Positions 525 through 56,632 of a stretch of 64,000 nucleotides of DNA are shown here, piece after piece. Both the position numbers and the translations under genes were made by a program. The DNA comes from Pinibacter soli (GTDB taxonomy: Bacteria > Bacteroidota > Bacteroidia > Chitinophagales > Chitinophagaceae), in contig NZ_JASBRG010000007.1 in NCBI RefSeq assembly GCF_029961145.1, positions 1,876,173-1,940,172 of the forward strand. The letters are read 5' to 3'. Each line of letters opens with the position of its first letter. Positions within the stretch are counted from its first letter, which is position 1. The notes beneath the pieces are model-generated. The model ran no database searches. It was not told the DNA's origin and saw only the letters and a list, made by a program, of their open reading frames with translations.

Positions 525-2891
525 ATGATATTTAAGCGGCAAGTTAATTCATCCACCTTCATTTACAGCACTTGCCTGGCATTGGTACTCGTTTTCTTTT
601 TGGGATCGTGCCTTACGGTAAAAAACTTTCCGCCAAACAAACCATTCGTCTTCAAATCAAATATAAAAATTGAGAGTAAGCAGCCAATTAACCAAAAGGA
701 TGAACTAAAGGAAAAACTGCTTATCCAGCTCGACGACAGCATTAAGAACCGCATTGTCACCAAATTACTTATCAGGCAAAAACTCGATAAACCACCTGTT
801 TTTGATACTTCGTACGCTGTTCGGAGCGCAACCTTCATGAAGGCCCTCTTAAAAAGCCAGGGTTACATGAGCGGAACCGTCACCTGGGACTCTACCCTGA
901 TCGTTAAAAAGAAGAAGAAAAAGCAACAACTCCGTGTTATAACAACGTTTACCGTTACACCGGGGATACTGACCAAAATTGACTCAATCAGCTATAATTT
1001 TAGAGATACATCTTTGCAGGCCCTTGTTATGCGCAGCTTACGGCGCTCAGATCTTAAAAAAGGCGATGCATACAAAAAAGAGGCGATCTCTGCCGAGCTG
1101 GACAGGTTGATCGACCAGTTTAAAAACAACGGTTATTACAAAATCAGTCGTGAAGATATTTACGCAGAAGTCGACACAGTAGAGGCCCGGCTCATTAACC
1201 CAAACATTGACATCTTTGAAAGAGCACGTTTGTTGGCTGAATTGCAAAAAAGAGGACAGAACCCAACTGTAGATATCGTATTTAAACAGCGGGCGAAAGA
1301 GAACCCTTCGCATCTAAAGAAATTCTACATTGACAAGGTTACCATTTACCCCGACCTTACCATTAGAGACGACACCGTGGAAACGGTTTCCAGGAAAGAC
1401 ACGATCAGAAACGTAACGATTATTTCCAAATACAATCTCTTTAAACCCAAATTCGTTGAAGCTCACAACTACCTGAAACCCGGCGCCCTTTACAGCCAAC
1501 GCAACTATATAAGAACGATAAACAGCTATAACCAGCTTGGCGCATGGCAGCAAACTGCCATTGATATTTTTTCAAATGATTCTCTTGGCAAGCTAAACAT
1601 GGATGTCCGTCTTTACCCGGCAGTAAGACGTAACCTGAACATTGGTTTGGAAGCGAGCAGGAACGAAAGCGACGTTGTTGCCACCAACTTGTTTGGCCTG
1701 GGTGTTACATTTGGCATTACCGATAAAAACATTGCGAAACAATCTGTACAAAGTAGCCTTAACACGCGTTTCGGTGTGGAATTGGGACAAGAATTGCTGC
1801 AAACCATTCAGACTTCCATCAACTACACGCTGCATTTCCCCAAGTTCATCCTGCCGTTTAAAGACAGCAGCCGCGTGAAGGGAAAAATCAGCACTGAAGG
1901 GACAAACCTTAGTATCAACGCCTCAAACACTTTGAGAAAGGATTTCTATACTTTACAAAATGCCAATATTTCATGGTCGTACGATTGGACAAAGGGCCGC
2001 GAGATTACAAGGAGAAATAAAATATACCTTTTCAACTATAGCCCAATAAATGTTGAATATCAGCACGTTATCCCAACAGACAGTTTAAGAATTCTCATTC
2101 GTGATGCCCCCAATCTCTACTATACATTCCAGGACGGGTTTATTGTAAGCCAGAACTTCAGGTTTCAGGTCATTACCACAAAGGGCAAACACACAACATC
2201 TGTAAAAACAGGTTTGGAGGAAAGTGGCGGACTACTTGGTCTAATAAAAACGCTCGATGTAGATGCTAAACTCTTTCGTTTTGTAAAAACTTTTTTAGAT
2301 TATAGTCACAATATTACTTACAAAAAAACGGCACTTGCCTTTCATGCTTATGGAGGTTTCGGTTTTTCCTATGGCGATACCAAAGACAGTTTGGGTAATG
2401 TTATACCTGAACAGGCATTGCCGGTAACCCGTGGATTTACTGCGGGTGGCCCAAACAGCATGCGTGCCTGGCGTGCAAGGCAGTTAGGTCCGGGCTCCTC
2501 AAAATTCTACGAAGAACTCCCCACCCCAAACCTCGATCGTTTTGGAGACATTCAACTGGAAGGAAACGCGGAGTATCGTTACAATTTATTTAATATAGGC
2601 AGCTTAAAGATCAAGAGCGCCCTTTTCCTGGATATGGGGAATATCTGGCTGCGTAATAACCAGGGCCAGGAGGGTTTGAATAATGGTGTTTTTAAATTGA
2701 ACAGATTATACAAGGACCTCGCAGTCGGCGCCGGTACCAGCTTGCGTTTCGATTTTGATTATTTCCTTATACGCCTTGACTGGGCCTACCAAATCAAAAA
2801 TCCACTATACGCCGACTACCACTACGGCTGGTTCCAGCAAATCAAATTCTGGGACGGACAGTTTCAGCTGGGGATCAATTACCCCTTTTAA
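525..2891 (+). CDS. tamL: Omp85-superfamily outer-membrane lipoprotein, TamL-like
   Basis: A 788-residue outer-membrane assembly protein of the BamA/TamA superfamily. From the ATG at 525 it has a signal peptide ending in a lipobox (FFLGSC, Cys29), so it is predicted to be lipid-anchored; Bacteroidota carry such a lipidated TamA, called TamL. Residues about 30-370 look like soluble POTRA-type modules. The rest is rich in alternating beta-strand pattern and contains the Omp85 barrel signature GGPNSMRAWRARQLGPG near residue 630. It ends in NYPF, an aromatic barrel terminus. An upstream ATG at 468 is in frame but would overlap the divergent methyltransferase start and bury the signal peptide, so 525 is preferred. 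The usual partner TamB is not next to it here. The stop codon touches the left arm of an intergenic inverted repeat. Role inferred: insertion of outer-membrane proteins or lipid transport with TamB. Confidence 0.85.
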   Translation: MIFKRQVNSSTFIYSTCLALVLVFFLGSCLTVKNFPPNKPFVFKSNIKIESKQPINQKDELKEKLLIQLDDSIKNRIVTKLLIRQKLDKPPVFDTSYAVRSATFMKALLKSQGYMSGTVTWDSTLIVKKKKKKQQLRVITTFTVTPGILTKIDSISYNFRDTSLQALVMRSLRRSDLKKGDAYKKEAISAELDRLIDQFKNNGYYKISREDIYAEVDTVEARLINPNIDIFERARLLAELQKRGQNPTVDIVFKQRAKENPSHLKKFYIDKVTIYPDLTIRDDTVETVSRKDTIRNVTIISKYNLFKPKFVEAHNYLKPGALYSQRNYIRTINSYNQLGAWQQTAIDIFSNDSLGKLNMDVRLYPAVRRNLNIGLEASRNESDVVATNLFGLGVTFGITDKNIAKQSVQSSLNTRFGVELGQELLQTIQTSINYTLHFPKFILPFKDSSRVKGKISTEGTNLSINASNTLRKDFYTLQNANISWSYDWTKGREITRRNKIYLFNYSPINVEYQHVIPTDSLRILIRDAPNLYYTFQDGFIVSQNFRFQVITTKGKHTTSVKTGLEESGGLLGLIKTLDVDAKLFRFVKTFLDYSHNITYKKTALAFHAYGGFGFSYGDTKDSLGNVIPEQALPVTRGFTAGGPNSMRAWRARQLGPGSSKFYEELPTPNLDRFGDIQLEGNAEYRYNLFNIGSLKIKSALFLDMGNIWLRNNQGQEGLNNGVFKLNRLYKDLAVGAGTSLRFDFDYFLIRLDWAYQIKNPLYADYHYGWFQQIKFWDGQFQLGINYPF

Positions 2892-3043
2892 ATTTGAGAA
2901 TTTGAAAAATGTGCTAATTTGAAAATGTAGGGTGCCGCAGCGAAACAATTGATTTTATCTTCTCGCTATTTAGAGATTAAGCGCCCCAAAGAAAGTCACA
3001 CACAAAGCATTTACAAATTTTCAAATCCTCAAATTTTCAAATT
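2891..3043. repeat. Family A intergenic inverted repeat between tamL and truB
   Basis: Left arm 2891-2926 is made of AATTTGA/GAAAAT words; right arm 3013-3043 is its approximate reverse complement. The tamL stop overlaps the left arm, and the truB stop codon (TGA) is inside the right arm. The spacer holds GGTGCCGC near 2930 and the second core motif (reverse orientation) at 2994-3012. The element separates two convergent genes and could serve as a bidirectional terminator. Confidence 0.8.
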
Positions 3044-3717
3044 GCCAAGTTTTGTTCAAAACTTGACAGGCTCTCCGCCAGATCAAGGGTAAACTCTCCA
3101 ATGCGTGTTCGGCACAGTTTACTTAAGTAGCCGCCGCAACCGAGCGCTGCACCGAAATCATTGGCCAGGCTACGTATGTAGGTGCCAGTGGAACAAACTA
3201 CTCTGAAATCAATTTTGGGAAGATCAATGGATGTAATCTCAAATTCTTTGATGGTTATTAGACGAGCATCGAGTTTTACCTCTTTTCCTTTTCTCGCTAA
3301 TTCATACACTCTTTTACCATCTACTTTAATAGCGGAATGTATTGGAGGCACCTGCATAATTTCGCCAGTAAACTGTTCAGTCGCTGCGCGAATCTGCTCC
3401 GGTGTAATGTGAGCATATTCTTTAAAGTCGATTGGATCGCTCTCGAGGTCGTAGGTTGGCGTAACGGCGCCAATGGTAATAGTACCCGTGTATTCCTTTT
3501 CCCTCGCCATGTATTCGTTGATCTTCTTGGTAAACCTTCCCGTGCATACGATCAGCAGGCCGGTTGCCAGCGGATCGAGTGTACCCGCATGCCCCACCTT
3601 CTTAATCTTGATCAGGTTGCGAATTTTCCTGATCACATCAAAAGAGGTCCACTCCAAAGGCTTGTCAATCAAGATCACCTGCCCCTCGTCGTACTTGTTT
3701 TTATAGATGCGTTCCAA
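3037..3717 (-). CDS. truB: tRNA pseudouridine(55) synthase TruB
   Basis: A 226-residue protein that isomerises U55 in the T-loop of tRNAs. The N-terminus has GQVILIDKPLEWTSFDV (12-28), and the catalytic motif GHAGTLDPLATGLL puts the nucleophile at Asp48. KEYTGTITIGAVTPTYDLES follows, with the RNA-binding IHSAIKVDGKRVYELAR and CSTGTYIRSLANDFG motifs later. It is shorter than the E. coli protein because the C-terminal PUA-like domain is missing, as is common in this phylum. The start is a TTG at 3717, since no in-frame ATG lies nearby upstream. The last residues (NLAI) and the TGA stop are supplied by a family A repeat arm. Transcribed away from the M48 cluster across a 166-bp gap containing another inverted repeat. 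Confidence 0.95.
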   Translation of the reverse strand: MERIYKNKYDEGQVILIDKPLEWTSFDVIRKIRNLIKIKKVGHAGTLDPLATGLLIVCTGRFTKKINEYMAREKEYTGTITIGAVTPTYDLESDPIDFKEYAHITPEQIRAATEQFTGEIMQVPPIHSAIKVDGKRVYELARKGKEVKLDARLITIKEFEITSIDLPKIDFRVVCSTGTYIRSLANDFGAALGCGGYLSKLCRTRIGEFTLDLAESLSSFEQNLAI

Positions 3718-3750: not shown

Positions 3751-3889
3751 AATTAATAATTAATAAAGGATAATTAATAGGGTAAGAGTCGCAACAGTTT
3801 GTAGTAACCTATTGACCATTACACTTTAATGTAGCTTGATATAATTTCGCTCACTATCCTATTAATTATTCTTTATTAATTATTCATTG
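3751..3889. repeat. Family I intergenic inverted repeat
   Basis: Arms 3751-3782 (AATTAATAATTAATAAAGG and on) and 3858-3889 are near-perfect reverse complements. The M48 protease stop codon (TGA, 3884-3886) lies at the edge of the right arm. The spacer contains GAGTCGCAACAGT near 3785, a partial match to the GTGCGACGCAACAG core seen in other elements. Confidence 0.75.
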
Positions 3890-8651: not shown

Positions 8652-8850
8652 TAGTGAGCACGCAGATGACGCTGATTAGACTGATTTACGCTGATCTTTT
8701 TCTGATTGTCGAAAGTTCAAGATTTTCTTTGATTTGATTGGCATACTATTTTCAAATCTTAGCCAATAATCAAAATCATAAAGATTTCGTTCCTTCAAAT
8801 CTTCTCATCTGTGTAAATCAGTCCAATCAGCGTCATCTGCGTGCTCACTA
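8652..8850. repeat. Family B intergenic inverted repeat
   Basis: Left arm 8652-8695 begins TAGTGAGCACGCAGATGACG; right arm 8805-8850 is its reverse complement with a few mismatches. The bioF stop codon (TAG) is the outer end of the right arm. The spacer carries a second, weaker pair near 8722-8735 and 8768-8792. Part of the family found again at 37.2, 38.1, 43.1 and 45.7 kb. Confidence 0.8.
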
Positions 8851-9940: not shown

Positions 9941-10072
9941 AAGTTATAAGTTTTAAGTAGTAAGTTTTAAGTTTTAAGTCTCTATGTGTTGCTCTTTGTA
10001 AATTTTACTGACATCCATATATCGAAAAGCTGCACTCAACGACTTATAACTTACAACTTAAAACTTATAACT
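9941..10072. repeat. Family H intergenic inverted repeat
   Basis: Left arm 9941-9979 consists of AAGTTATAAG and TTTTAAG words; right arm 10042-10072 is the inverse (ACTTATAAC, AACTTAAAAC). It lies between the divergent bioF and miaE starts, so here the element would be in or near promoter DNA rather than at gene ends. Confidence 0.7.
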
Positions 10073-10098
10073 ATTTTTGCTCCATCTCAATCATTCAC

Positions 10099-10713
10099 AT
10101 GGAATCCACAGAATCAATAAACGTTAAAAACATATTGGGCCTGCAATTGCCCACAGATCCGCGTTGGGTGAACCTGGCGGAGATTTCGCTGGAAGCGGTT
10201 TTAACCGATCACGCTTATTGTGAGCAAAAAGCGGCCACCACCTGTATTTCGCTTATCCAGCGATATTCTGACAGAGTGGAGCTGGTAGAGGAACTTGCCC
10301 CAATCGTTACGGAAGAATGGGGACATTTCCGGTTGGTTCTGGCGGAACTTAAAAAAAGAGGTCTTAAGCTGGGCAAGCAACGCAAGGACCTCTACGTAAA
10401 TGCATTGCTGGAATTCCAGGTGAAGGGCGGCAGTGTGGATGACACTTTTCTCGACAGGTTGCTAACCATGGCCCTTATTGAGGCCCGCAGCTGTGAACGC
10501 TTCAAACGTCTGAGCGAGGGCCTCGAAGACCCATATTTGCAAAACTTTTATCGCCGCTTTATGGAAAGCGAAGCAGGACACTACAAACTGTTTATAGAGC
10601 TTGCAGAAATGTACATTGATAAAGAACGGGTGCGCAAACGCTGGAAAGAATGGCTCGATTTTGAAGCCGGCCTGATGGAGAGCATGGAAGTGCGCGGCGA
10701 CCGGATACATTAG
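10099..10713 (+). CDS. miaE: tRNA-(ms2io6A)-hydroxylase MiaE
   Basis: A 204-residue ferritin-like di-iron monooxygenase. MiaE hydroxylates ms2i6A37 in tRNAs reading UNN codons. The iron ligands are visible as E42 (DHAYCEQKA), E73 and H76 (EEWGH), a glutamate in LIEARSCERF near 128-135, and the EAGHY motif near residue 157-161. The LGLQLPTDPRW opening is typical of the family. Length is normal. The TAG stop is shared with the start of a family D hairpin repeat. The miaB or miaA partners are not in the window. Confidence 0.92.
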   Translation: MESTESINVKNILGLQLPTDPRWVNLAEISLEAVLTDHAYCEQKAATTCISLIQRYSDRVELVEELAPIVTEEWGHFRLVLAELKKRGLKLGKQRKDLYVNALLEFQVKGGSVDDTFLDRLLTMALIEARSCERFKRLSEGLEDPYLQNFYRRFMESEAGHYKLFIELAEMYIDKERVRKRWKEWLDFEAGLMESMEVRGDRIH

Positions 10714-10781
10714 TAGAGACGCGTTGAACGCGTCTCCGCACCAAACGAATGCAACAGAGACGCATTCAATGCGTCTCTACT
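10711..10781. repeat. Family D paired hairpins after miaE
   Basis: Two small perfect or near-perfect hairpins, 10716-10736 (GAGACGCGTTGAACGCGTCTC-like) and 10756-10778 (AGAGACGCATTCAATGCGTC and on), which are also inverted copies of each other with TAGTAG/CTACTA at the outer ends. The miaE stop is the first TAG. A second pair of the same family lies at 28.6 kb. Confidence 0.8.
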
Positions 10782-10828
10782 AACAACTTTTTCTTAGTTT
10801 TACACCCAACCAAAAAAAACTATCAACG

Positions 10829-11605
10829 ATGCAGGTTCCTGTAATGGCGGAAATGTTTGCGAACGGACAATCACCAGACGTACTATTTTGGGTTGGATGT
10901 TCGGGAAGTTTCGATCAAAGGGCTCAGAAAATAACCAAAGCTTTTGCTACCATTCTTAATAAAGTAGGAGTTAATTACGCCATTCTGGGAAAAGAGGAAA
11001 TGTGCACAGGAGATCCTGTTCGCCGCGCCGGAAACGAATTTATGTTTCAGATGATGGCGTATCAAAACATTCAGATTCTCAACAACTACGGCATCAAAAA
11101 AATTGTAACCGCCTGTCCTCACTGTTTTAATACACTCAAAAACGAATACCCTGATCTTGGAGGTAATTATGAGGTTATTCACCATGCTACTTTTCTGCAG
11201 CAACTGATTGACGAAGGAAAAATAAAAATGCAGGAAGGCGGTGTTTACAAAGGCAAAAAAATCACCTATCACGATAGCTGCTATCTTGGCCGCTCCAATA
11301 ATATTTACGAAGCTCCGCGCAAAGTACTGGAAGCCCTGGATGCTGAACTGGTGGAAATGAAACGCTGCCGCAGCAAAGGTTTGTGTTGTGGAGCCGGCGG
11401 GGCCCAAATGTTTAAGGAAGAAGAAAAAGGCGACATCCGCATAAATATTGAACGCACCAATGAGGCCTTGGAAACAGGCGCTTCTATAGTTGCTTCCGCT
11501 TGTCCGTTCTGCAACACCATGCTGACAGACGGCGTTAAAAACCAGGAAAAGGAGAACGATGTTGCGGTGCTGGACATTGCGGAGTTAGTGGCAATGTCTA
11601 TTTAA
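10829..11605 (+). CDS. CCG-domain Fe-S oxidoreductase subunit
   Basis: A 258-residue soluble protein made of two cysteine-rich CCG domains of the type found in HdrB, GlpC and LutA. The first has FWVGCSG (about residue 20-26) and TACPHCFNTL (about 95-104). The second has YHDSCYLGR (about 150-158), LCCGAGGAQM (about 191-200) and ACPFCNTML near 223. Such domains hold a noncubane 4Fe-4S cluster or zinc and mediate thiol/disulfide or electron-transfer chemistry. In Bacteroidota it often sits after a membrane Fe-S protein of a lactate- or quinone-linked complex. Here no partner gene is adjacent: it follows miaE after a repeat and precedes a hydrolase. Electron partner unknown. The TAA stop overlaps a family A arm. 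Confidence 0.85.
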   Translation: MQVPVMAEMFANGQSPDVLFWVGCSGSFDQRAQKITKAFATILNKVGVNYAILGKEEMCTGDPVRRAGNEFMFQMMAYQNIQILNNYGIKKIVTACPHCFNTLKNEYPDLGGNYEVIHHATFLQQLIDEGKIKMQEGGVYKGKKITYHDSCYLGRSNNIYEAPRKVLEALDAELVEMKRCRSKGLCCGAGGAQMFKEEEKGDIRINIERTNEALETGASIVASACPFCNTMLTDGVKNQEKENDVAVLDIAELVAMSI

Positions 11606-11750
11606 TTTGAAAATTTGAAAATGTGCTAATTTGAAAATTCAATAAGTACAGCATTCTTCTTTTTTGAAAATGCAGTAAGCCGAGCTTAACTAACAATGAT
11701 CAAACTGGAAACCCAATTTTCAAATTAGTACATTTTCAAATTTTCAAATT
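11604..11750. repeat. Family A intergenic inverted repeat, nearly perfect
   Basis: Left arm 11604-11639 and right arm 11715-11750 pair over 36 bases with a single mismatch. The TAA stop of the Fe-S protein gene overlaps the left arm, and the next start codon lies 11 bp beyond the right arm. The spacer includes AGTACAGCATTCTT, a weak relative of the second core. Confidence 0.9.
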
Positions 11751-11761: not shown

Positions 11762-12397
11762 ATGAAAGCTTACTTCATTTCCGGGCTGGGCGCCGATAAA
11801 CGAGCGTTTAAGTACATTAAAGTTCCTGATAAATATCAAGCCGTTCACATTGATTGGATCCAGCCCGTCAAGCAGGAAAATATCCAGGCATATACGAAAA
11901 GACTTTCCAGCGCAATTGATGATTCTGAGCCATTTATATTGATCGGGCTTTCTTTTGGCGGCATCATTGCGTGCGAGCTGGCGAAAATTACTCGTCCGCA
12001 AAAAGTGATCATCATTTCCAGCGTTACTACTCACACAGAGATTCCTTACGTTTATAGACTAGCCGGTAAATACAATCTTGATAAATATCTGCCCTACAAT
12101 TACATGCTTAAAGCAACCCCTGCCCTCTTCTGGCTCTTTGGGCCGTTAACGAACGAAGCGAGGGTGCTGCTGGGAAATATCATCCGGGAAACCGACCATC
12201 GCTTTTTCACATGGGCCATCAGCCAGATCGTCCGCTGGAAAAATGATACAAAACCCGAAAACCTCTTACAATTACACGGAAAAAAAGACAAGATCTTCTG
12301 GAACTCCCACGCCCACTGCTACATCGATGGTGGCGGACATTTTATGGTGTACACGCATGGAGAGATTATTAATAGTTTGCTTACCGAACTGCAATAA
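11762..12397 (+). CDS. Alpha/beta-hydrolase fold protein
   Basis: A 211-residue compact alpha/beta hydrolase. The nucleophile elbow GLSFGG puts the serine at residue 64. The acid is likely D176 (GKKDKIF) and the histidine H193 (GGGHFMV), in the normal order. FISGLGADKRAF at the N-terminus forms the oxyanion-hole strand region. No signal peptide, so cytoplasmic. Substrate unknown; a BioH-like pimeloyl-ester esterase role is conceivable because bioF is close by, but nothing in the sequence shows it. Both ends touch family A repeats: the TAA stop overlaps the next left arm. Confidence 0.82.
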   Translation: MKAYFISGLGADKRAFKYIKVPDKYQAVHIDWIQPVKQENIQAYTKRLSSAIDDSEPFILIGLSFGGIIACELAKITRPQKVIIISSVTTHTEIPYVYRLAGKYNLDKYLPYNYMLKATPALFWLFGPLTNEARVLLGNIIRETDHRFFTWAISQIVRWKNDTKPENLLQLHGKKDKIFWNSHAHCYIDGGGHFMVYTHGEIINSLLTELQ

Positions 12398-12538
12398 TTT
12401 GAAAATTTGAAAATGTGCTAATTTGAAAATTCTTTGTGTGCAGCATTCTCTTGCAACACATACTACAAGATAGTGCCAAACGGGGATGCCATACCTGAAC
12501 CCAATCTTCAAATTTTCAAATCTTCAAATTTTCAAATT
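12396..12538. repeat. Family A intergenic inverted repeat
   Basis: Left arm 12396-12431 is identical to that at 11604; right arm 12502-12538 is a shuffled complement (CTTCAAA and TTTTCAAA words). The spacer carries the second core at 12433-12447 (TTTGTGTGCAGCATT). The right arm ends 15 bp before the next start codon. Confidence 0.85.
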
Positions 12539-12553
12539 ACCTACCTTCGTTCT

Positions 12554-13063
12554 ATGAATCTCGAATACAAAAGTTTACTACCGGAAGGTTTTGCGGCATC
12601 ATCAAGAGTGTGGGTGTACCAGGCTAGCCGTTTGTTTTCAATAAATGAAGCGTTGCAAATAGAAGGTATGCTGGAAGATTTCGTAAGTGGCTGGAACACA
12701 CACGGAACACCCGTGAAAGGTTTTGGCGCATTGTTTTTCGGTCAGTTTATCATTTTGATGGCAGATGAAACTGCGGCCGGCGTAAGCGGGTGCAGCACAG
12801 ATAGTTCCGTTCGTGTGATAAAACAAATTGAGCAAACCTACCAGGTAAATATGTTCGACAGGCAAATGCTGGCATTTGTGGTGAAGGATAAAATTCAAAT
12901 GTTGCCACTTGCGCACTTGAACCACGCTATTGAAAATAATTTTGTAACGCCAGGCACATTGTATTTCAACAATATGGTGCTAAACAAAGAAGAGCTGGAA
13001 AACAAATGGATCATTCCGGTAAAAGATAGCTGGCTTGCGAAGAAGATCGCTAAAACAGCATAG
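12554..13063 (+). CDS. Conserved hypothetical protein, about 169 residues
   Basis: A soluble protein of 169 residues with no signal peptide or membrane segment. I recognise the general look of a small Bacteroidota-conserved protein (QASRLF, EGMLEDFVSGWNTHG, FIILMADETAAGVSGCSTDSS, ELENKWIIPV), sometimes loosely labelled an ABC transporter ATPase in databases. However, no Walker A, Walker B or signature motif is present, so that label has no support here. The pattern W-x-x-H-G plus a conserved CSTDSS could be a binding pocket. The ATG at 12554 is chosen because an upstream start at 12434 would translate a repeat arm. Function unknown. Confidence 0.75.
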   Translation: MNLEYKSLLPEGFAASSRVWVYQASRLFSINEALQIEGMLEDFVSGWNTHGTPVKGFGALFFGQFIILMADETAAGVSGCSTDSSVRVIKQIEQTYQVNMFDRQMLAFVVKDKIQMLPLAHLNHAIENNFVTPGTLYFNNMVLNKEELENKWIIPVKDSWLAKKIAKTA

Positions 13064-13065
13064 AG

Positions 13066-13208
13066 CAATTTGAAAATGCGCTGATTTGATAATTTGAAAA
13101 TTGGGTTCAGGTGTAACATCCTCGGTTGGCACGGTCGTTTCGTATGCACAGCTCGTGCACGTCATACATAGTGAATTTTCAAATCAGCACATTTTCAAAT
13201 TTTCAAAC
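13066..13208. repeat. Family A intergenic inverted repeat
   Basis: Arms 13066-13102 and 13173-13208, separated by a 70-nt spacer with a GTGCACG/CGTATGC-rich sequence. Located 3 bp after the stop of the hypothetical gene. Confidence 0.8.
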
Positions 13209-13635
13209 TAATCTATTATTTCTGTATTAAATACCACTCTTTACTCTTGACATAGCCTTTCTAAGTCTTTACTTTTACCTCGCCGTCCGCCCCAATCCAA
13301 CTATTCCCATCTAGCTTACATCAAAGATTTCACAAAGATTTTCACCCATTGAAGATCAGCAATAACATTCAGGTTATCAACCCCTTTTTTGCACCTAAAC
13401 CTCTTTTTATGAAACTTACTGCACACCTGTTTGCAAGGTATTCCTGTTGCAACTACATATTGTCAACCATTATCAGTAACGGCCCCTTGATGTCAGGGAC
13501 CAATTTTCTTCTTTAATGATTCTGAGAGAAAGAGTCTGTTATTTAAAGACAGACATCAAAACATTTGTCCGTACTCAATAAAACTGTTTTCACAACGGAG
13601 CATCTATCTATTAATACAAACCTAAAAACGAATTT
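13209..13635. other. Intergenic stretch of 427 bp without recognised content
   Basis: No open frame of note and no word-repeat arms. Presumably it holds the promoter of the lipoprotein pair that follows. A TTGACA-like hexamer occurs near 13247 and short imperfect palindromes near 13483-13500, but none is convincing. Confidence 0.4.
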
Positions 13636-14451
13636 ATGAAAGTGCGAATTTCAACTATTGCTTTAACACTGATTGTCATCTACAGCATGGGCTGTAAAAA
13701 AGTGTATGACTACATTGACAAAAACCCGACCGCAACCTGTGATGCGTGTAAGATCACACAATTTACTACTTACTACAGTTCCTTTAAAACGGTACGCGAT
13801 GTTAGCTATGATAAAAAGGGAAACATCATCAGCATAGTTGCGCAAACCTGGAATGTTCCCAACTATGACTATTACTTCCGTTACGATAACAAAAACAGAA
13901 TAGCAGAACGGATATCAGTGTACAGCGGCTCTCTTGGCGGCGCTATATCATGGGAATCTTACAGATATTTCAAGGACAAGATCGTTGATACCTTTTATCA
14001 ATATTCAGGAAACTATCACGACCCTGCGCCTCCGGTAAATGATTATGTCAATAAGGCTTACATGGTATTTCAGCAAGACGCTTTGGGAAGAATCACCAAG
14101 GGCACATGGATACTGGAGCCAGAAAATCCAAATCAATCCACCATTTACAAATATGACCTCTATTCAAACCTTTTGCACGACCCTGTATCACTTTATGACA
14201 ATAAAATCAATCCATACCGCACCAACAACATGTGGCAAATAACGATGAGAGATTTCAGCGCCAATAACGCTATCGACAATCCGGCGATAGCTGAACAGTA
14301 CTATCCGGAAATTGTCAGCTACAACTCCTACGGACTTCCTACTAAATATAGAGCAAATCGTTACACTGGCAATTTCCAGACAACGTTTGGCTTTTTCTAC
14401 GATTCGCTGGAAGTGAAGTACGATTGCGATTTGTCCAAAATAAATTATTAG
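13636..14451 (+). CDS. YD-repeat-like lipoprotein, copy 1 of a tandem pair
   Basis: A 271-residue predicted lipoprotein: signal peptide with lipobox YSMGC (Cys20) followed by KKVYDYIDKNPTA. The mature part contains YD-type strand motifs (YDKKGNIISI, YRYDNKNRI, YNSYGLPTK) as in RHS/YD-repeat and DUF4595-like proteins. It also contains the local signature YDNKINPYRTN-W-x-x-x-x-x-DFSANN. No enzyme motif. The next gene is a close paralogue 48 bp downstream with the same CDACKITQF or SDACKITQF segment, so the pair is a tandem duplication, probably one transcript. A more distant relative sits at 48.6 kb. Likely anchored in the outer membrane; function unknown. Confidence 0.85.
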   Translation: MKVRISTIALTLIVIYSMGCKKVYDYIDKNPTATCDACKITQFTTYYSSFKTVRDVSYDKKGNIISIVAQTWNVPNYDYYFRYDNKNRIAERISVYSGSLGGAISWESYRYFKDKIVDTFYQYSGNYHDPAPPVNDYVNKAYMVFQQDALGRITKGTWILEPENPNQSTIYKYDLYSNLLHDPVSLYDNKINPYRTNNMWQITMRDFSANNAIDNPAIAEQYYPEIVSYNSYGLPTKYRANRYTGNFQTTFGFFYDSLEVKYDCDLSKINY

Positions 14452-14499: not shown

Positions 14500-15309
14500 A
14501 TGAAAGTTAAAACCCACATCGCCGCGACATTTGCCATTGTGCTATTTATATTAAGCAGCTGTAAAAAAGTATATGACTATGTAGAACACCATCCCACAGC
14601 TACCTCCGACGCATGCAAGATCACACAGTTTACAGTTTCTGAAGATGGATTAACTGTTATTTTCGATGTTACATACGACAAAAAAGGAAACATGATTAGT
14701 GTTGTGGCCAGAGAAGGTTATCGTGTTTACATGAACTTCGATCAGTACTACAGGTACGACAAACACAATCAACTAACGGACCAGATCATTGCCTATCATG
14801 GGTATTCCGTTCCAATTACCTGGCACTCTTATCAATATGCCCACAACAAGATCATCGATTCTGTCTATCAAAATAGCGGCAATCTGTCTGACACTAAGCC
14901 TCCGGTCAATGCGCCTGCAAGTGCCAAAGCTTATTACAACATCACAACGGATAACTTTGGAAGAATCGTAAGTTTCACCGCGAGCAACAACTACAGTGGC
15001 TCCTTCCAATATAACGACCAAGAAAATCTCATCCGCACTTTCCCGGCTACATACGACGATAAAATAAATCCTTACAGAACGAATCCAGTGTGGCAGCAGG
15101 TTTTCTGGGACTACAGCGCTAACAATCCAATTCTACACCTGGCGCCTCCCGATTACTCCCTTGCAAAAATTGTGAGCTACAATTCCTACGGCTTGCCGAC
15201 AAAATACGTGGCCTATGATGGGTTCCGCTATAATGGAGGCAGGTTCGGCTTTGGATTTGATACGCTGGAGATAAAGTACGACTGCGACATCTCGAAAGTT
15301 GGATATTAG
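14500..15309 (+). CDS. YD-repeat-like lipoprotein, copy 2 of a tandem pair
   Basis: A 269-residue paralogue of the preceding gene: lipobox LSSC (Cys21), KKVYDYVEHHPTA, then YDKKGNMISV, YRYDKHNQLTD, YDDKINPYRTNPVWQ, YSANNP and YNSYGLPTKY. The two proteins align along their full length, so this is a whole-gene duplication. Differences concentrate between the shared motifs. It ends 81 bp before the stop of the convergent histidine kinase, with a family G inverted repeat between. Confidence 0.85.
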   Translation: MKVKTHIAATFAIVLFILSSCKKVYDYVEHHPTATSDACKITQFTVSEDGLTVIFDVTYDKKGNMISVVAREGYRVYMNFDQYYRYDKHNQLTDQIIAYHGYSVPITWHSYQYAHNKIIDSVYQNSGNLSDTKPPVNAPASAKAYYNITTDNFGRIVSFTASNNYSGSFQYNDQENLIRTFPATYDDKINPYRTNPVWQQVFWDYSANNPILHLAPPDYSLAKIVSYNSYGLPTKYVAYDGFRYNGGRFGFGFDTLEIKYDCDISKVGY

Positions 15310-19901: not shown

Positions 19902-20009
19902 GAATTAATAATTAACAGTGCATCAGTCACCAAATTTTCGAACATAGTGAACGATTGCAAAAGAATTACATGTCGCTCCTATTGATTTTTAATTATTAAT
20001 TATTAATTC
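19896..20009. repeat. Family I inverted repeat inside the efflux operon
   Basis: Left arm 19896-19915 (AATTAAGAATTAATAATTAA) includes the TAA stop of the HlyD gene; right arm 19987-20009 (TTTAATTATTAATTATTAAT) faces it. The spacer contains GTGCATCAGTCACC. Confidence 0.7.
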
Positions 20010-20047
20010 GAAGTATCTAACAACTATCAAACTCACAACTATCAAAT

Positions 20048-20725: not shown

Positions 20726-20736
20726 TTACACCCTAG

Positions 20737-20899
20737 TTAATTAGGAATTAAGAATTCTGTGTGCGCAACATTCCTAATTAGCTATTGTCATGAATTTCTA
20801 GTAAAAGAAAAGATTTCATCTCTCTTTTAATGCCGTACCTACCAATGTAGCTGATCAACATTGAACAATTCTTAATTCCTAATTCTTAATTCTTAATTA
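20737..20899. repeat. Family E inverted repeat inside the efflux operon
   Basis: Left arm 20737-20756 (TTAATTAGGAATTAAGAATT) and right arm 20867-20899 (AATTCTTAATTCC and on). A fragment of the core (TGTGTGCGCAACATT) abuts the left arm at 20758-20772. Right arm ends 8 bp before the GTG start of the first permease. Confidence 0.75.
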
Positions 20900-20906
20900 C
20901 TCTGCG

Positions 20907-23306: not shown

Positions 23307-23316
23307 TACGACTACG

Positions 23317-23440
23317 AATTAGGAATTAAGAATGCTTAATCAGCGACTATGCGCTACTAATGTTGAACACAAGAAGTCTGTAAAAAATAAGAAATGCTGC
23401 ACACAAAGCATTCTTAATTCTTAATTCCTAATTCTTAATT
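23317..23440. repeat. Family E inverted repeat between the two permeases
   Basis: Arms 23317-23334 (AATTAGGAATTAAGAATG) and 23410-23440 (ATTCTTAATTCTTAATTCC and on). The second core (AATGCTGCACACAAAGCATT, 23393-23412) sits at the inner edge of the right arm and is itself quasi-palindromic. Confidence 0.8.
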
Positions 23441-25863: not shown

Positions 25864-26351
25864 ATGCTCAATTAAGAATAGTGATGTTAATTGAAAATTG
25901 AAAATGCATTGGATTGAAGTTTGTTTAAAAACGTTAATCATTCATTGTTCAATAAAGAACAAATGCTGAAGTGTGCGACGCAACGATGTCGATAGTAGTA
26001 ATACAGCTCAGTTCAAAATAAAAGATAAACCAACAGCGTATAACTTAATAAAAACCATTTTCAACTTTCAATTTTCAATTAAAGAAAATCGTACATCAAT
26101 TGTATCAAAAACGAACAGCACTTAATACGACCACTTCACAACAATCTGTCTTTCAAGCACAAACGCTTTTGGCGGCATATTTGGTTGAACTGGCATGGAG
26201 CTGGTTAATTGAAAATTGAAAGTTGAAAATTGAAAATGCTTTAGCGGTCTGGCAAAGTAAAAATATCGCGTTTCTTTTTGTCAAATCTTACTTTCAATTT
26301 CTAATTATCGACTCATTTTCAATTTTCAACTTTCAATTTTCAATTAAAGAA
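25864..26351. repeat. Two family F inverted repeats, one a perfect 34-bp pair
   Basis: First pair: 25889-25906 with 26056-26080 (AATTGAAAATTGAAAATG words), its spacer holding the first core GTGTGCGACGCAAC within 25960-25984. Second pair: 26205-26238 and 26314-26347 are exact reverse complements over 34 bases with a 75-nt spacer. The second pair ends 4 bp before the ATG of the next ATPase gene. Nothing coding is seen in this 488-bp gap. Confidence 0.9.
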
Positions 26352-28476: not shown

Positions 28477-28858
28477 GTTATCAATCGCGGACAACTGATG
28501 GTCAGGTTCCTGTGCTTCAAGAAAGTCTAAGTTTTTTTATGGGCCGGACAATTGTACTACTATTATGCAACTGTTGCGTCGCACCCTTCAGCAGTATATC
28601 TACATTGAAATGCAGCCGTCCGTAGTAGAGACGCGTTGAACGCGTCTCCGTATCACCCGAAACATGATACATTAAAAACGAAATCCCCACATTTTGGGTT
28701 ACACGTTGCAGGTGTTACTGAGACGCATTCAAGGCGTCTCTACAGGGATTCATGAACTGGGATCGGCAATTTGCGCGACGCATCCTAATACCGCTTTACG
28801 CCATCCACGTCTTTTTCGCTTTTTTTCCATAATTTGACCGCCAAATTAAACATACTGC
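28477..28858. repeat. Gap with a core copy and family D hairpins
   Basis: No gene is seen. The reverse-oriented first core occupies 28571-28593. Family D hairpins lie at 28628-28648 (GAGACGCGTTGAACGCGTCT and C) and 28720-28740 (GAGACGCATTCAAGGCGTCT and C), with CTAC on the far side to 28743. The remainder, including the stretch before the permease start, shows nothing recognisable. Confidence 0.75.
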
Positions 28859-30580
28859 ATGTCCAATTCTTTGTTCCGTAAGAAATCGATAGCTAAAATA
28901 GTTAAGGATGCCGAACAAGGTTTTGGCGATGGCCACGACGCCAGCGGTTTGCAAAAGATTCTCACTGTAAGGGATTTAACGTTTATGGGCATCGCCGCTG
29001 TGGTAGGCGCGGGTATCTTTTCTACCATCGGAACGGCAGCATTTAATGGCGGCCCGGGCATTTCTCTCCTATTTATTATTACAGCTGTCACCTGCGGATT
29101 TTCGGCGCTTTGCTATGCAGAGTTTGCGAGTCGCGTACCGATCGCGGGAAGTGCTTATACATATGCCTACGTGTCATTCGGCGAACTGATCGCGTGGATC
29201 ATTGGTTGGGCCCTGATCCTGGAATATGCCATAGGAAATATCGTAGTGGCCATTTCATGGAGTGGTTATTTTAATAATCTTTTGATGGGTTTAGGCATTC
29301 ATCTGCCCGGTTGGCTATTGAACGATCCTTCTACAGCTTTTAAAAATTTCACCAACGCAACTGCAGAACTCGCTTCCGGTAAAACTTTGACAGATGATGC
29401 ACGACAAATGTTTCAAAGTTACATTAGCTCATGGAATAACGCCCCTATTGTTGGGGGCAAACATTTCTTCATCAATTTGCCTGCGTTCATTATTGTTGTA
29501 TTGATTACAACCCTTGCCTACATTGGCATTAAGGAAAGCAAGAAGACCACTAACTTCATGGTGATCTTTAAAATACTTGTGATCATTTTTGTGATCATTC
29601 TTGGTTTCTTTTACGTGAAACCTGCTAACTGGCATCCTTTCCTGCCGAACGGATTTGGCGGCGTACTGGCAGGCGTATCGGCAGTGTTCTACGCCTATAT
29701 TGGTTTTGACGCCATTTCAACAACCGCAGAAGAATGCCGCAACCCGCAACGCGATCTTCCACGCGGCATGATCTATTCTCTTGTTATCTGTACAGTTTTA
29801 TATATTCTCATCGCTTTGGTACTTACCGGCATGGTAAATTATTCGGAACTAAAAGTACCTGATCCTTTGGCTTACGTTTTTCATAAGATCGATCAAAAGT
29901 GGATCAGCTACATTATCTCAATCAGTGCAGTAGTGGCTACAACCAGCGTTATGCTGGTGTTCCAGGTGGGTCAACCGCGCATTTGGATGAGCATGAGCCG
30001 CGATGGTTTGCTGCCAAAAAGATTTTCAGAAGTTCATAAAAAATATAAAACGCCTTCTTACGCAACAATCATTACAGGTATTGTGGTAGGCGTACCAACG
30101 CTGTTCATGCCTATGGATATGATGACCGATCTTACCAGCATCGGTACTTTGTTTGCATTTGTGTTGGTATCCGCCGGTGTTTTGTTATTACCAAAAAATG
30201 AAAACAGACATGGGGGCTTCCGTTTGCCTTATATCAATGGACGCTTCATCGTTCCTGTATTGTTTATCATTTTCATTTATCTCATGAAAGACAGGATCAT
30301 TACTTCTGCGCAAAATCTTGGTAAGGATAATTTGCAGGAAGTGTTGTTCCTTGTTTATATGCTGATAGGCACAATCCTTTCCGTATTAACATTTATCCGT
30401 TCCTATTCAATGATCCCGATCCTGGGCGTGTTATCATGCGCCTATTTACTTATCGAAATCCCAGCCATTTCATGGGTTTGGTTCTTCATCTGGATGGCTG
30501 TCGGGCTGGTGATTTATTTCTTTTATGGATATAGGAAAAGCCGCCTTGCCGCTTCGCAGCAGGGCAATTTGAAAATTTGA
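28859..30580 (+). CDS. APC-superfamily amino-acid permease
   Basis: A 573-residue inner-membrane transporter of the amino acid-polyamine-organocation superfamily, resembling the cationic amino-acid transporter/YfnA branch. About 12-14 hydrophobic helices. The first has the unwound substrate-binding motif GIAAVVGAGIFSTIG (about 43-57), and the sixth-helix region AVFYAYIGFDAISTTAEECRNPQRDLPRG is diagnostic. Substrate specificity cannot be read from sequence. The final residues GNLKI and the stop codon come from a family A repeat arm, so the protein has probably gained or exchanged its extreme C-terminus by repeat insertion. Confidence 0.92.
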   Translation: MSNSLFRKKSIAKIVKDAEQGFGDGHDASGLQKILTVRDLTFMGIAAVVGAGIFSTIGTAAFNGGPGISLLFIITAVTCGFSALCYAEFASRVPIAGSAYTYAYVSFGELIAWIIGWALILEYAIGNIVVAISWSGYFNNLLMGLGIHLPGWLLNDPSTAFKNFTNATAELASGKTLTDDARQMFQSYISSWNNAPIVGGKHFFINLPAFIIVVLITTLAYIGIKESKKTTNFMVIFKILVIIFVIILGFFYVKPANWHPFLPNGFGGVLAGVSAVFYAYIGFDAISTTAEECRNPQRDLPRGMIYSLVICTVLYILIALVLTGMVNYSELKVPDPLAYVFHKIDQKWISYIISISAVVATTSVMLVFQVGQPRIWMSMSRDGLLPKRFSEVHKKYKTPSYATIITGIVVGVPTLFMPMDMMTDLTSIGTLFAFVLVSAGVLLLPKNENRHGGFRLPYINGRFIVPVLFIIFIYLMKDRIITSAQNLGKDNLQEVLFLVYMLIGTILSVLTFIRSYSMIPILGVLSCAYLLIEIPAISWVWFFIWMAVGLVIYFFYGYRKSRLAASQQGNLKI

Positions 30581-30719
30581 AAATATGGTAATTTGAAAAT
30601 GCCTAGCTAGCTCAACATTCATAATTGAAAGGAGACATTCACAAAAGAATGGCTCCTTTTTTTATGCGGAACGTCGCACAGAAAGAATTTTCAATTACCA
30701 TATTTTCAAATTTTCAATT
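30565..30719. repeat. Family A inverted repeat overlapping the permease C-terminus
   Basis: Left arm 30565-30600 begins inside the coding region and contains its TGA stop; right arm 30685-30719 is the complement with few mismatches. A separate terminator hairpin is nested in the spacer, and ACGTCGCAC (30671-30679) resembles the reverse core. Confidence 0.85.
30628..30663 (+). terminator. Rho-independent terminator after the amino-acid permease
   Basis: AAAGGAGACATTC (30628-30640) pairs with GAATGGCTCCTTT (30647-30659) with one mismatch around a 6-nt loop, followed by a run of seven or more T. It is a classical intrinsic terminator nested between the arms of a larger inverted repeat. Confidence 0.85.
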
Positions 30720-32040: not shown

Positions 32041-32149
32041 CAATTTGAAAATTTGAAAATATGCTAATTTGAAAATGAAAGGTGCCGCATCCAGTGTTAG
32101 ATGAGGCACCTTTCATTTTCAAATTTTCAAATTACTATATTTTCAAATT
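32041..32149. repeat. Family A inverted repeat with nested GGTGCC stem
   Basis: Left arm 32041-32076, right arm 32113-32149. The inner part GAAAATGAAAGGTGCC (32070-32085) pairs perfectly with GGCACCTTTCATTTTC (32105-32120), so the RNA would form one long stem. It separates the convergent bioA and DUF2911 genes and probably terminates both. Confidence 0.85.
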
Positions 32150-32151
32150 GA

Positions 32152-32649: not shown

Positions 32650-32750
32650 TTTATAAATTTTATGTAAGCCAAAGTACGATCAATTCACAAATTATGCCAG
32701 AGAATGATTGATGAATTATTAATGAAGAAGGATGAATGGTTTAAGAGATA

Positions 32751-32922
32751 GAACGCAGATTTTCATGATTGTCACGATTTATTATGATTTTGTATTCTCT
32801 ATTCGCCGATAAGAATTCCAAATGCTGAAGTGTGCGACGCAACAGTAGCTGAAACCAGTTCTAACCTTGCATTCCAACAAAAAAATCAGTGCAAGTCGTG
32901 ACAATCATGAAAATCTGGGTTC
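32751..32922. repeat. Family C inverted repeat with first core in the spacer
   Basis: Left arm 32751-32791 (GAACGCAGATTTTCATGATT and on), right arm 32881-32922. The spacer contains the first core at 32819-32843, identical over 25 bases to the copy at 25960, where the arms are of family F instead. Confidence 0.85.
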
Positions 32923-32927
32923 TTTCT

Positions 32928-33413
32928 CTATTTTCTCAAACCTTGTTCTTTCAATTTCGCCAGGCTTTTTTCCATCACCGGGCCTAATTGCTGGTCGTAT
33001 ACCATGCTGGCTAGTTTTTCCCACGGGTACCATTTCACCTTAAAATCAAAGAACCATTGAACCGTTGTAATATTGTCATGGGCAACCAAATAATAACCGG
33101 AAGTAAATACTGTATTTTTCTGGTGCCATTCGGCTTTAATCGTACTATCTGAAACGGACGTGATATTGATATTCACTTGATCAGAAGTTAACGATGTTGG
33201 TGAAGGATATTGCCTGTTAGTGAACGTATCAACATACAAGTTCCATTTTTCCCAGTTACGGATGTCGGAAAGATATTTATACACCGAGTCATAAGGAGCA
33301 TCAATATCCGTTGCTCTTGAGACTTTTACCGAAGAGGGCATGAAGGAGGAAATGATAAATACTAATCCGAAAAGCACCACGGAACTGATGATGGCCAGTT
33401 TTAAAATTTTCAT
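32928..33413 (-). CDS. SRPBCC (START-like) domain protein
   Basis: A 161-residue protein with an N-terminal hydrophobic anchor (residues 4-24) and a helix-grip fold typical of the SRPBCC/polyketide-cyclase family: VSRATDIDAPYDSVYKYLSDIRNWEKWNLY is the hallmark first strand-helix-helix. Such domains bind hydrophobic ligands. Here an anchor puts it on the membrane, probably facing the periplasm. Ligand unknown. It has no obvious operon partners. Confidence 0.82.
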   Translation of the reverse strand: MKILKLAIISSVVLFGLVFIISSFMPSSVKVSRATDIDAPYDSVYKYLSDIRNWEKWNLYVDTFTNRQYPSPTSLTSDQVNINITSVSDSTIKAEWHQKNTVFTSGYYLVAHDNITTVQWFFDFKVKWYPWEKLASMVYDQQLGPVMEKSLAKLKEQGLRK

Positions 33414-34697: not shown

Positions 34698-34865
34698 GAA
34701 CGCAGATTTTCATGATTGTCATGATTAAACAAGATTTTATTTTTTTTGCCCTTGGAACCCAAGTCGTAGTAACCGTTATGATAAAAACTGATATTTTCTG
34801 ATAAATCAGAAATATTAATCATAAAAAATCATGACAATCATGATAATCATGATAATCTGCGTTCC
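34698..34865. repeat. Family C inverted repeat upstream of the ABC-2 permease
   Basis: Left arm 34698-34739, right arm 34822-34865. The spacer has its own hairpin CTGATATTTTCTGATAAATC and on (34789-34818) but no recognised core. Confidence 0.8.
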
Positions 34866-39599: not shown

Positions 39600-39612
39600 A
39601 GAGCCAATGTGG

Positions 39613-39752
39613 CAATTTGAAAATTTGAAGATTTGAAAATGGAGCTGTGCGACTTCTTAACCGAATTCTTCTACTCTCGAAAAACCAAGATGTTTCAATT
39701 AAGAAATGACAGTCGCGCCAGAAGCATTTTCAAATTTTCAAATCTTCAAATT
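39613..39752. repeat. Family A inverted repeat between convergent genes
   Basis: Left arm 39613-39640, right arm 39725-39752. The spacer has AGCTGTGCGACTTC (39642-39655) and AGTCGCGCCAGAAGC (39711-39725), partial core matches on both strands. Confidence 0.8.
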
Positions 39753-39769
39753 TACACATTACAGGAATT

Positions 39770-43021: not shown

Positions 43022-43249
43022 TTTGAAAATGTGGGGATTTGAAAATTTGAAAATGAGGGCACGCAGATGACGCTGACTAGACTGATTTACACGGATTTTT
43101 TTTTGAAAGGCACTATCAAATCTGACAAACAGAGTAAGCCCATGAATAAAAGTTATAGCGTTACACAGAATGAATTCTTAATTCCTAATTCTTAATTCTT
43201 AATTGATCTCATTAGCGAGTCCCCTATTAATTCTTAATTATTAATTACC
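43018..43249. repeat. Composite gap of family A, B, E and I arms
   Basis: In order: family A arm 43018-43055 (overlapping the ATPase stop), family B forward arm 43058-43103, family E reverse arm 43172-43204, family I reverse arm 43224-43248. The right-hand arms end 8 bp before the TTG start of the permease. Mixed arms within one gap argue for element chaining. Confidence 0.8.
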
Positions 43250-43256
43250 AACAGCC

Positions 43257-45698: not shown

Positions 45699-45930
45699 AG
45701 AGCACGCAGATGACACTGATTGGACTGATTTGCACTGATTTTTTTTGATTATCTAGTTAAACTCTATCAGAGAGCCTTTCCAAAGAAAGATTTATCGGTT
45801 CCAAGCAGACAAAACATTTACAAAGAAATCCGTGCACATCCGTCCGATCAGTATCATCTGTGTGCCATCGATGCGTCCTTTCTTCAAAATCCGTGTAAAT
45901 CAGTCTAATCTGTGTCATCTGCGTGCTACT
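45696..45930. repeat. Family B inverted repeat with two right arms
   Basis: Left arm 45696-45748 starts in the YggS stop (TAGAGAGCACGCAGATGACA). Two inverted arms follow at 45825-45868 and 45886-45930. The double right arm suggests partial duplication of the element. Confidence 0.8.
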
Positions 45931-47657: not shown

Positions 47658-47679
47658 TCTTCTTTTTGTAGCATAAAGC

Positions 47680-47730
47680 CAAACGCCTAATGCCTAACGC
47701 AAAGTCTCTGCGTTTAGCGTTAGGCGTTTG
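47680..47730 (+). repeat. Long hairpin after glnS
   Basis: CAAACGCCTAATGCCTAACG (47680 onward) pairs with the facing arm ending TTAGGCGTTTG at 47730, with about 19 of 22 matches and a 7-nt loop. A distinct word family (GCCTAACGC) seen once in this window. It may act as a terminator for glnS, although no long T-run follows. Confidence 0.7.
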
Positions 47731-47912
47731 ACATTCGGAGTCCTCCAATTATTAGAAAATTCCTCAACCTTTTGCTTCCCCTTTTTGTTATAACTATCTG
47801 TTAGCTAATTAGCAAAACCCTAACACAGTAACAGAAAAAATTCATTATCTTCAGATGACCGCCTACCCGTTAGTACCGCACCTTTTTACATCTCAGAACA
47901 AAAGAAAAATAT

Positions 47913-50904: not shown

Positions 50905-50967
50905 TGTTTTGTCATTTAAACAACAAACAGAATCGTAATCTAAATAGAATACAACTTTAATATAATA

Positions 50968-50996
50968 AAAAATCCCCCGAAATACGGGGGATCTAT
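50968..50996 (-). terminator. Rho-independent terminator after sucC
   Basis: On the minus strand ATCCCCCG/CGGGGGAT (50985-50992 with 50972-50979) close a 5-nt loop and run into TTTTTTATTATA. It is a canonical intrinsic terminator for sucC, located between sucC and the downstream hydrolase. Confidence 0.92.
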
Positions 50997-51019
50997 ATAC
51001 AAATTGATTCTTTGTTTAA

Positions 51020-54461: not shown

Positions 54462-54586
54462 TACTGAGGTTTTTAATAGTTAGGAAAATAAACTGCAAAT
54501 TTGCAGTTTAATCGCCAACGAAACAAACCATTTCTCCTTATTAACCAGTCATTTATTTTATAATAACTTGTATTTCAATAGTTATC

Positions 54587-55069: not shown

Positions 55070-55071
55070 CT

Positions 55072-55175
55072 AATTGAAAATTGAAAATGGTTTTGACCGG
55101 AGAACTGAGAATTAAAAGTTATCCTCAATAAATGTCAAATTTTGAATCAATCATTTTCAACTTTCAATTTTCAAC
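55072..55175. repeat. Family F inverted repeat between convergent genes
   Basis: Left arm 55072-55089 (AATTGAAAATTGAAAATG), right arm 55152-55175 (CATTTTCAACTTTCAATTTT and CAAC). It lies directly in front of a strong terminator hairpin. Confidence 0.7.
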
Positions 55176-55206
55176 TAAAAAGTGCAACTTTCGTTGCACT
55201 TTTTTT
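55176..55206. terminator. Bidirectional terminator between the YkgJ and acyl-CoA dehydrogenase genes
   Basis: AAAAAGTGCAAC (55177-55188) and GTTGCACTTTTT (55193-55204) pair over 12 bp with a tight TTTC loop, followed by a T-run on the plus strand and preceded by A-rich sequence, so it can serve both convergent genes. Confidence 0.9.
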
Positions 55207-55222
55207 GCTTTTTTCTCCATGT

Positions 55223-56377: not shown

Positions 56378-56456
56378 ATAGGCGTTTTGAAATTTATTGC
56401 CAAATATATGGAAAGTTGCTTCACTAACTAATGATCGTTAGTATTTTTTTATGAGT

Positions 56457-56632
56457 GGAACACGAATTTTCATGATTGTCATGATTTATCAAGATCCAGA
56501 TAGAATTTTTGAACCAGGGCGAGGAATGGATATCGAGATAGACTTCAGCTATTCTGGTCGTTTTTTGTTGAGGAAGCCGACGAAACAAAAAATCATGACC
56601 AATCATGAAAATCATGAAAATCTGCGTTCCTT
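56457..56632. repeat. Family C inverted repeat
   Basis: Left arm 56457-56498 (GGAACACGAATTTTCATGAT and on), right arm 56587-56632 (AATCATGACCAATCATGAAA and on). No recognised core in the spacer. It abuts the thioredoxin-gene terminator region. Confidence 0.8.

Follow-up and report, generated by a model that had tools for sequence, protein, structure and literature searches.

Word-built facing arms between the genes of Pinibacter soli: probable non-autonomous mobile elements whose arm families replace one another

The window analyzed here is a stretch of 64,000 nucleotides of the Pinibacter soli genome (G000:C11:1876173-1940172; 5.9 Mb in 12 contigs), and the elements in question are intergenic inverted repeats in which two arms made of short repeated words face each other across a spacer. 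It was compared with the corresponding stretches of two congeners, G001 and G002, all three being colinear with 86.3 to 86.4% DNA identity. A sequence-only reading of the window had claimed that almost all gaps of at least 100 bp carry such arms, that at least ten word families occur, and that the layout of arm, spacer, facing arm, and gene edge is constant. Between positions 2891 and 56632, 28 of the 32 gaps of at least 100 nt contained a word family, and for the words the first claim therefore holds; it is weaker for the arms, as 20 of the 32 gaps showed a strong inverted repeat (score of at least 13), 17 of these with a spacer of at least 30 nt. Four of the 32 gaps had neither a word family nor a strong inverted repeat. 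Twelve of the 18 families defined by us were present in gaps of the window, the constant architecture with many arm vocabularies was borne out and extends to the sister species, and the proposed spacing of 30 to 170 nt was broadly right (of 47 pairs in the window, the 25 longest have spacings from 1 to 143 nt).

Most families are built of 7-nt words plus one odd word. The family E arm is a 28-mer of ATTGAAA words with GTTGAAA in third place (order A-A-G-A), family D combines ATTAAGA with ATTAGGA, family M combines GTTGAGA with ATGGAGA, and family H uses ATTAATA. Heptad families found in gaps are E, D, H, M, J, N, I, O, K, and G. The words of family A have about 8 nt, and those of families B and C follow a 9-9-10 pattern (GATGACACT GATTGGACT GATTTACACT GATTTT). 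Families F and U are palindromic repeats of the repetitive extragenic palindromic (REP) type and not word arms. None of the window elements is assigned to a strand. Two examples quoted in the sequence-only reading were reproduced exactly: the family A element at 11604 to 11750 has arms of 36 nt at 11604-11639 and 11715-11750 with one mismatch (97%), its left arm sharing bases with the stop codon of a gene that ends at 11605, and the family E element at 26205 to 26347 has perfect arms at 26205-26238 and 26314-26347 (34 of 34 nt, 100%). Further examples are the family H element with AATTAATA heptads at 3751 to 3888 (arms of 34 nt, 91%), a family D element at 23313 to 23430 (25 nt, 92%), the 9-9-10 family C element at 32744 to 32929 (48 nt, 85%), the family K element with AACGCCT heptads at 47675 to 47735 (30 nt, 80%, with a spacer of 1 nt), and the GTAG-tagged palindrome pair of family F at 28625 to 28743 (42 nt, 83%).

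In a 460-kb stretch of the same genome with 247 gaps of at least 60 nt, 111 gaps reached the score of 13, compared to 0.4% of 741 dinucleotide shuffles. The seed words of the 18 families, which were picked not blind but after inspection of gaps from all three species, matched 153 of the 247 gaps and 1 of 638 coding stretches. Neither are the families confined to the window, as word A has 70 matches across the genome.

The arms mostly face inward. Neighboring clusters of the same family less than 250 nt apart faced inward in 344 cases and otherwise in 17 (3 back to back, 14 in the same direction), and 434 of 470 clusters, as well as 84 of 92 solo clusters, pointed inward from the nearer gene edge. 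In convergent gaps the arms started at a median of 3.5 and 2 nt from the two stop codons; 60 of 164 arm starts lay at or before the final base of the stop codon, and that base was the commonest offset (19 arms). Median spacer lengths ranged from 15 nt (K) to 111 nt (B). A T at position -2 preceded 51 of 131 A arms, 55 of 105 E arms, and 22 of 35 M arms; TA is not claimed as an insertion target, since this signal is missing in D and H and a duplication was not seen. A candidate inner box beside the A, D, and H arms is likewise not claimed, as TTCTGTG occurred in just 7 of 78 spacers of P. soli and anchored logos did not exceed about 1 bit for D, with 14 sequences, and could not be used for A, B, and C.

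Comparison of orthologous gaps showed that the family at a given place can change. The clearest swap lies in gap 134 after position 32035, where the window has a family A element (32041 to 32150), G001 has family M, and G002 has family E, with a different hairpin in each. The family A element at 30569 to 30717 has a terminator-like hairpin within its spacer; its counterpart in G002 shows D words and a further hairpin of this type. Other family A and C elements correspond to C words in G002 (39606 to 39760) and to A words in G001 (34698 to 34864), respectively. Words of family M are found in G001 in place of the family E element at 55070 to 55222 and, as GAG-word arms, in place of the REP-type, GTAG-tagged palindrome pair of family F at 10710 to 10783; H words replace the family D element at 20726 to 20906 in the same species. 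In both congeners the TAAG words of the family G element at 9942 to 10072 (31 nt, 94%) are TGAG words, the D/H-word element at 19902 to 20020 has AAAGTCAAAAGT words as its counterpart, and the family B element at 45701 to 45927 corresponds to C and B words. The same family was kept in both congeners in the convergent gap filled by the family A element at 2892 to 3036 and at the family C element at 56444 to 56643. The G001 gap (117) orthologous to the 9-9-10 family B element at 8652 to 8850 (44 nt, 93%) is without an element. The gap at 43022 to 43256 is a composite one, with A, B, and D/H words.

With a strict definition, 85 orthologous comparisons gave the same family, 36 a clean swap, and 14 a mixed result. 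Clean swaps made up 18 of the 50 comparisons at convergent gaps, 17 of the 62 at tandem gaps, and 1 of the 23 at divergent gaps. A looser definition gave, for the three species pairs, 44, 45, and 45 gaps with the same family, 19, 15, and 24 clean swaps, and 7, 9, and 10 mixed cases. Among 60 gaps with an element in all three species, 27 had one family, 27 had two, and 6 had three. These tallies omit gaps lacking a callable element in both species, and pairs in which one species has an element and the other a degenerate or solo one (22, 35, and 25) are left aside. Differences in presence and absence also occurred, with counts that are rough because several of the "absent" gaps retain a remnant arm or short words. 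The swaps and the presence/absence differences called for by the modular idea are thus real, and gradual drift without swaps is not what the gaps show. A comparison at strain level via Parabacteroides gave no match or matches that were too distant, and the genus of G071 comprises a single genome.

In swaps the arms and the spacer are replaced together, as one unit. Spacer homology above the 99th percentile of random pairs was found for 74 of 118 same-family orthologs and for only 4 of 58 swapped ones (1 of 19 for E-M and D-H swaps, 3 of 39 for the others). BLAST searches with masked words detected spacer relatives for 11 to 12 of 32 to 35 same-family elements and for 1 to 2 of 16 to 27 swapped ones. 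Swap partners were not random, with 13 E-M (5.1 expected), 12 A-C (5.9), 10 D-H (1.9), and 7 B-C swaps (2.0), while the 8 A-E swaps matched expectation (7.1). These preferences possibly result from recombination between similar arms or from shared requirements of the gaps, and they offer a concrete handle on how elements get replaced.

The best proof of mobility as a unit comes from the Oscillospiraceae metagenome-assembled genome (MAG) SIG596 (G162), in which a 258-bp element with E-heptad ends is present at 23 places, the query included, with 85 to 100% identity over at least 235 of the 258 bases. In three aligned copies homology begins at the arms and the flanks differ; among the copies in general, too, many flanks are unlike. 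Number and composition of the arm words varied between copies whose spacers are 90 to 97% identical, and at one locus (L344) a foreign heptad array is inserted beside the spacer of an element of this type. The end and arm comparisons in this genome, read on one strand, matched 18 and 20 of 30 loci, respectively, and both ends were located in 13 of the 18. In the window, the family A elements at 12395 to 12539 and 13060 to 13216 flank one gene, and each is a copy of the other in inverted orientation, with the spacer included (52 nt, 79%). The genes next to the pair are not paralogous, and those at 11762 and 12434 show no similarity; a possible alternative origin of this pair is a spacer flip via arm recombination following some duplication. 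Other copy pairs in Pinibacter are C11:2936740/C11:2554220, which are distant, and C11:2825430/C11:2826090, which are near each other. A search of the whole genome with the element at 12.4 kb gave one near-full-length match of 74% (C9:69588) and four more at 69 to 72% that might be explained by the arms alone. Dispersed copies with common inverted ends, as known from miniature inverted-repeat transposable elements (MITEs), thus amount to 23 in G162 and are fewer and older in Pinibacter.

Other palindromic repeats were seen as well. At G000:C11:1392540, C11:2333556, and C11:2622115 there are copies of about 150 bp of a palindromic repeat with TGTCATCCCGACGAAGGAGGGATCTG, whose spacers are about 92% alike. 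At L252, L231, and L227 of SIG596, GTGCTGA heptad arrays are joined to short GC-rich palindromes, for example GGGGCTACGCCG, and form mosaics with E arms.

Facing units, their replacement at orthologous gaps, and their dispersed copies are observations; the elements behind them are probably non-autonomous mobile inverted-repeat elements of about 100 to 260 bp, each consisting of an arm, a spacer, and a facing arm. Each arm, a fixed string of 7-nt words (9-9-10 in B and C), would act as the element end, and one or more enzymes supplied in trans may place copies of the unit in AT-rich DNA along gene edges, with arms that would often supply the stop codon. Purifying selection would exclude the elements from genes and mostly spare promoter gaps. 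Newcomers may displace older elements, so that a gap would keep an element while its family may change; such displacement is suggested because, of the seven gaps with four clusters, five were nested and none had the pairs side by side (one was interleaved and one of another kind). A hypothetical single-stranded hairpin intermediate would fit the lack of a target duplication. The sequence-only reading had further proposed that one mechanism makes all families with low-complexity words as template, which goes beyond what the data show. The families do have a common grammar (mostly heptads plus one odd word, 9-9-10 in B and C), and swaps favor partners of one group, but an identical word order at many loci and in several phyla suggests that ready-made words were copied.

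Several results weigh against this interpretation. A mobilizing enzyme was searched for among Y1_Tnp genes, reverse transcriptases (RVT_1), and open reading frames (ORFs) between facing arms, and none was found. At the three Y1_Tnp loci of P. soli and the one of G162 no REP-associated tyrosine transposase (RAYT) is enclosed by word arms, and across the family, in which 107 of 147 genomes have a Y1_Tnp gene, the number of these genes did not correlate with the words, G131 having 15 of them and no E words. No autonomous version was present among 12 facing pairs with 300 to 2,500 nt between the arms in 2.64 Mb, which covers 28% of the P. soli genome, the longest ORFs of which, where recognizable by inspection, look like ordinary cell genes. 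No target-site duplication was seen in 13 G162 copies, where nested flanks blur the ends, and these flanks carry other repeats common to several copies. Only 17 of 178 masked Pinibacter spacers had a relative in 28% of the genome, several being short pieces, a figure that neither proves nor excludes general whole-unit copying because the method detects only about one-third of same-family orthologs. In other taxa, 26 of 90 E matches (first 80 loci) had a facing partner by a strict pattern that misses variant arms such as those at L224, and 28 of 90 overlapped a mechanically called ORF of at least 80 amino acids.

Alternatively, the elements might be functional RNA or DNA signals under selection, such as bidirectional terminators or stabilizers of transcript ends, in which function resides in the hairpin and any of the words could serve to form it. 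This would agree with the accumulation of strong inverted repeats in convergent gaps (among gaps of at least 90 nt in the 460 kb, 38 of 45 convergent ones have such a repeat, compared to 55 of 134 when tandem and 15 of 43 when divergent), with terminator-like hairpins in the spacers of 17 of 82 convergent, 11 of 109 tandem, and none of 37 divergent gaps (1, 0, and 0 in shuffles), and with arms that are better conserved than spacers (0.93 versus 0.79 over aligned bases in 65 pairs). Cyanobacterial heptad repeats have also been discussed as transcript stabilizers or terminators (PMC2670836, cited here, like the other sources below, from excerpts). However, co-change of the two arms occurred in 0.19 of 159 changed columns versus 0.24 in the control, and arms matched within elements no better than between elements in eight of nine families, the exception being J (P = 0.014). 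Left and right arms of the G162 copies, compared in a Mantel test on 10 of them, were likewise without covariation. Parallel word changes in both arms were striking in single cases (gap 9943-10098; gap 193) and not above control. An Rfam scan of the window identified no family, and the E/M pattern is patchy, being present in 16 of 147 genomes of the family. Functional signals of this kind are thus an unlikely explanation. Selection for RNA structure and hairpin-templated correction were set aside, as arm covariation was negative three times. The sequence-only reading had left it undecided whether the elements are mobile, RNA structural, or both; the dispersed copies support mobility, and the covariance expected of an RNA-structural role did not appear.

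We give little credence to the idea that the elements are strict REPINs (REP doublets forming hairpins) mobilized by a RAYT, in which the word arms would be an unusual form of REP. The layout is alike, with inverted conserved ends, a variable spacer, mobility of the whole unit, and solos as remnants (excerpts of PMC3116915 and PMC3733652), Y1_Tnp genes are present in both P. soli and G162, and family F combines GTAG with a palindrome. Family F alone has these features, whereas the arms of families A to E and G to K lack GTAG and a palindromic REP of 20 to 40 bp, and none of the four examined Y1_Tnp genes is enclosed by facing word arms. At L032 an A-word element lies merely alongside the Y1_Tnp gene. 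Compensatory changes, described as common in the excerpt of the REPIN paper (PMC3116915), are absent from the word arms. Apart from the G131 case mentioned above, G106 has E words and no Y1_Tnp match, its genome being 89% complete. Reverse transcriptase, also considered by the sequence-only reading, follows the words no better, with no RVT_1 match in G000 or G001 and four in G002, and a need for it is not supported.

At L033 (G000:C9, about 119400 to 120070), 50-nt palindrome-bearing inverted repeats at 1180-1229 and 1820-1869 flank a Y1_Tnp gene of 217 amino acids. The gene looks like a classical RAYT accompanied by a REP of its own that differs from the word arms, and the presence of this palindromic repeat on both sides of it argues further against word arms as unusual REPs.

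Very improbable is a mutational origin, gap by gap, in which slippage builds the heptad runs and palindrome correction matches the arms: the heptad period, the word number varying among G162 copies, and the statement, cited in the excerpted PMC4679880, that in many genomes heptads outnumber all other longer repeat units, which is attributed to polymerase slippage, would suit it, but the shared 28-mer order A-A-G-A at many loci in several phyla is unexpected from independent slippage, and the arms match the family consensus and not each other.

Assembled genome contigs contain the exact E 28-mer in at least 112 stretches, titled as Bacteroidales and other Bacteroidota, Clostridia, Oscillospiraceae, and single bins of Lentisphaeria, Acidobacteriota, and Deferribacteres, and the MAGs or genomes that carry it represent at least four phyla. 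Single odd bins may represent contamination, because most carriers are MAGs. Overlapping matches of the E/M pattern numbered 345, 724, and 974 in the three Pinibacter genomes and 51 in G071, with few elsewhere, and the C pattern was found only in the three Pinibacter genomes (51, 78, and 159). Six viral contigs (L316-L321) contain the exact E 28-mer and none contains C; plasmid records with E arms are all pieces of Parabacteroides distasonis bearing genes such as rpoN and purE. One might tentatively imagine a single mobilization system across phyla that recognizes the grammar (facing heptads, one odd word) rather than one sequence, with vocabularies coexisting and replacing one another at gene borders, an idea that we regard as doubtful. 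In the Lentimicrobiaceae SIG104 (L219, L264, L276, and L310), E arms alternate with a GTAG/GAGACG-type unit, and these arrays are a possible link of word arms to GTAG repeats.

Small dispersed repeats of Nostoc were reportedly the subject of work in 2008, which PMC3116915 mentions. The cyanobacterial short tandemly repeated repetitive (STRR) sequences are 7-bp repeats between genes that can form hairpins and whose function is given as unknown (excerpt of PMC2670836). The heptad families, and not B and C, resemble them as intergenic, tandem, hairpin-capable 7-bp repeats; the difference lies in the at least ten co-resident families of facing arm pairs seen here, which are swapped at orthologous gaps. 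TAACTGA heptamers have been described in Beggiatoaceae, Cyanobacteria, and five Bacteroidetes, mostly as direct repeats immediately before start codons; the BOGUAY genome is reported to have one inverted case (excerpt of PMC4679880). They share the intergenic heptads and the patchy distribution, and family J contains TAACTGA, but facing pairs dominate here. The BrickBuilt MITE of Porphyromonas gingivalis, also of the Bacteroidota, is a short, intergenic, non-autonomous inverted repeat with tandem repeats; according to the excerpted account its 23-nt tandem repeat is internal (PMC4596501), whereas here the tandem words are the inverted ends. In contrast to ordinary MITEs, neither a target duplication nor a parent transposase was found in the 13 G162 copies and the 12 candidate pairs in 2.64 Mb. 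In sum, the elements work like REPINs or MITEs, lack the RAYT and GTAG of REPINs, and come without the parent and the duplication of ordinary MITEs.

A text search of the literature for six word strings gave a sole match, which concerns a nematode; the statement that the elements have no printed description applies only to that literature set and those terms. If the interpretation as mobile elements is correct, much of the intergenic DNA of the genus would reflect the turnover of tiny mobile elements defining gene ends, and a single class may unite the word repeats that have been described independently from cyanobacteria, Beggiatoaceae, and Bacteroidota.

Two further features of the window concern its genes. 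The region at 50905-51019 has 115 nt compared to about 850 nt in G001 and G002, and two small genes are apparently missing in the window. The genes at 13636-14451 and 14500-15309 are neighboring paralogs with 47% identity.

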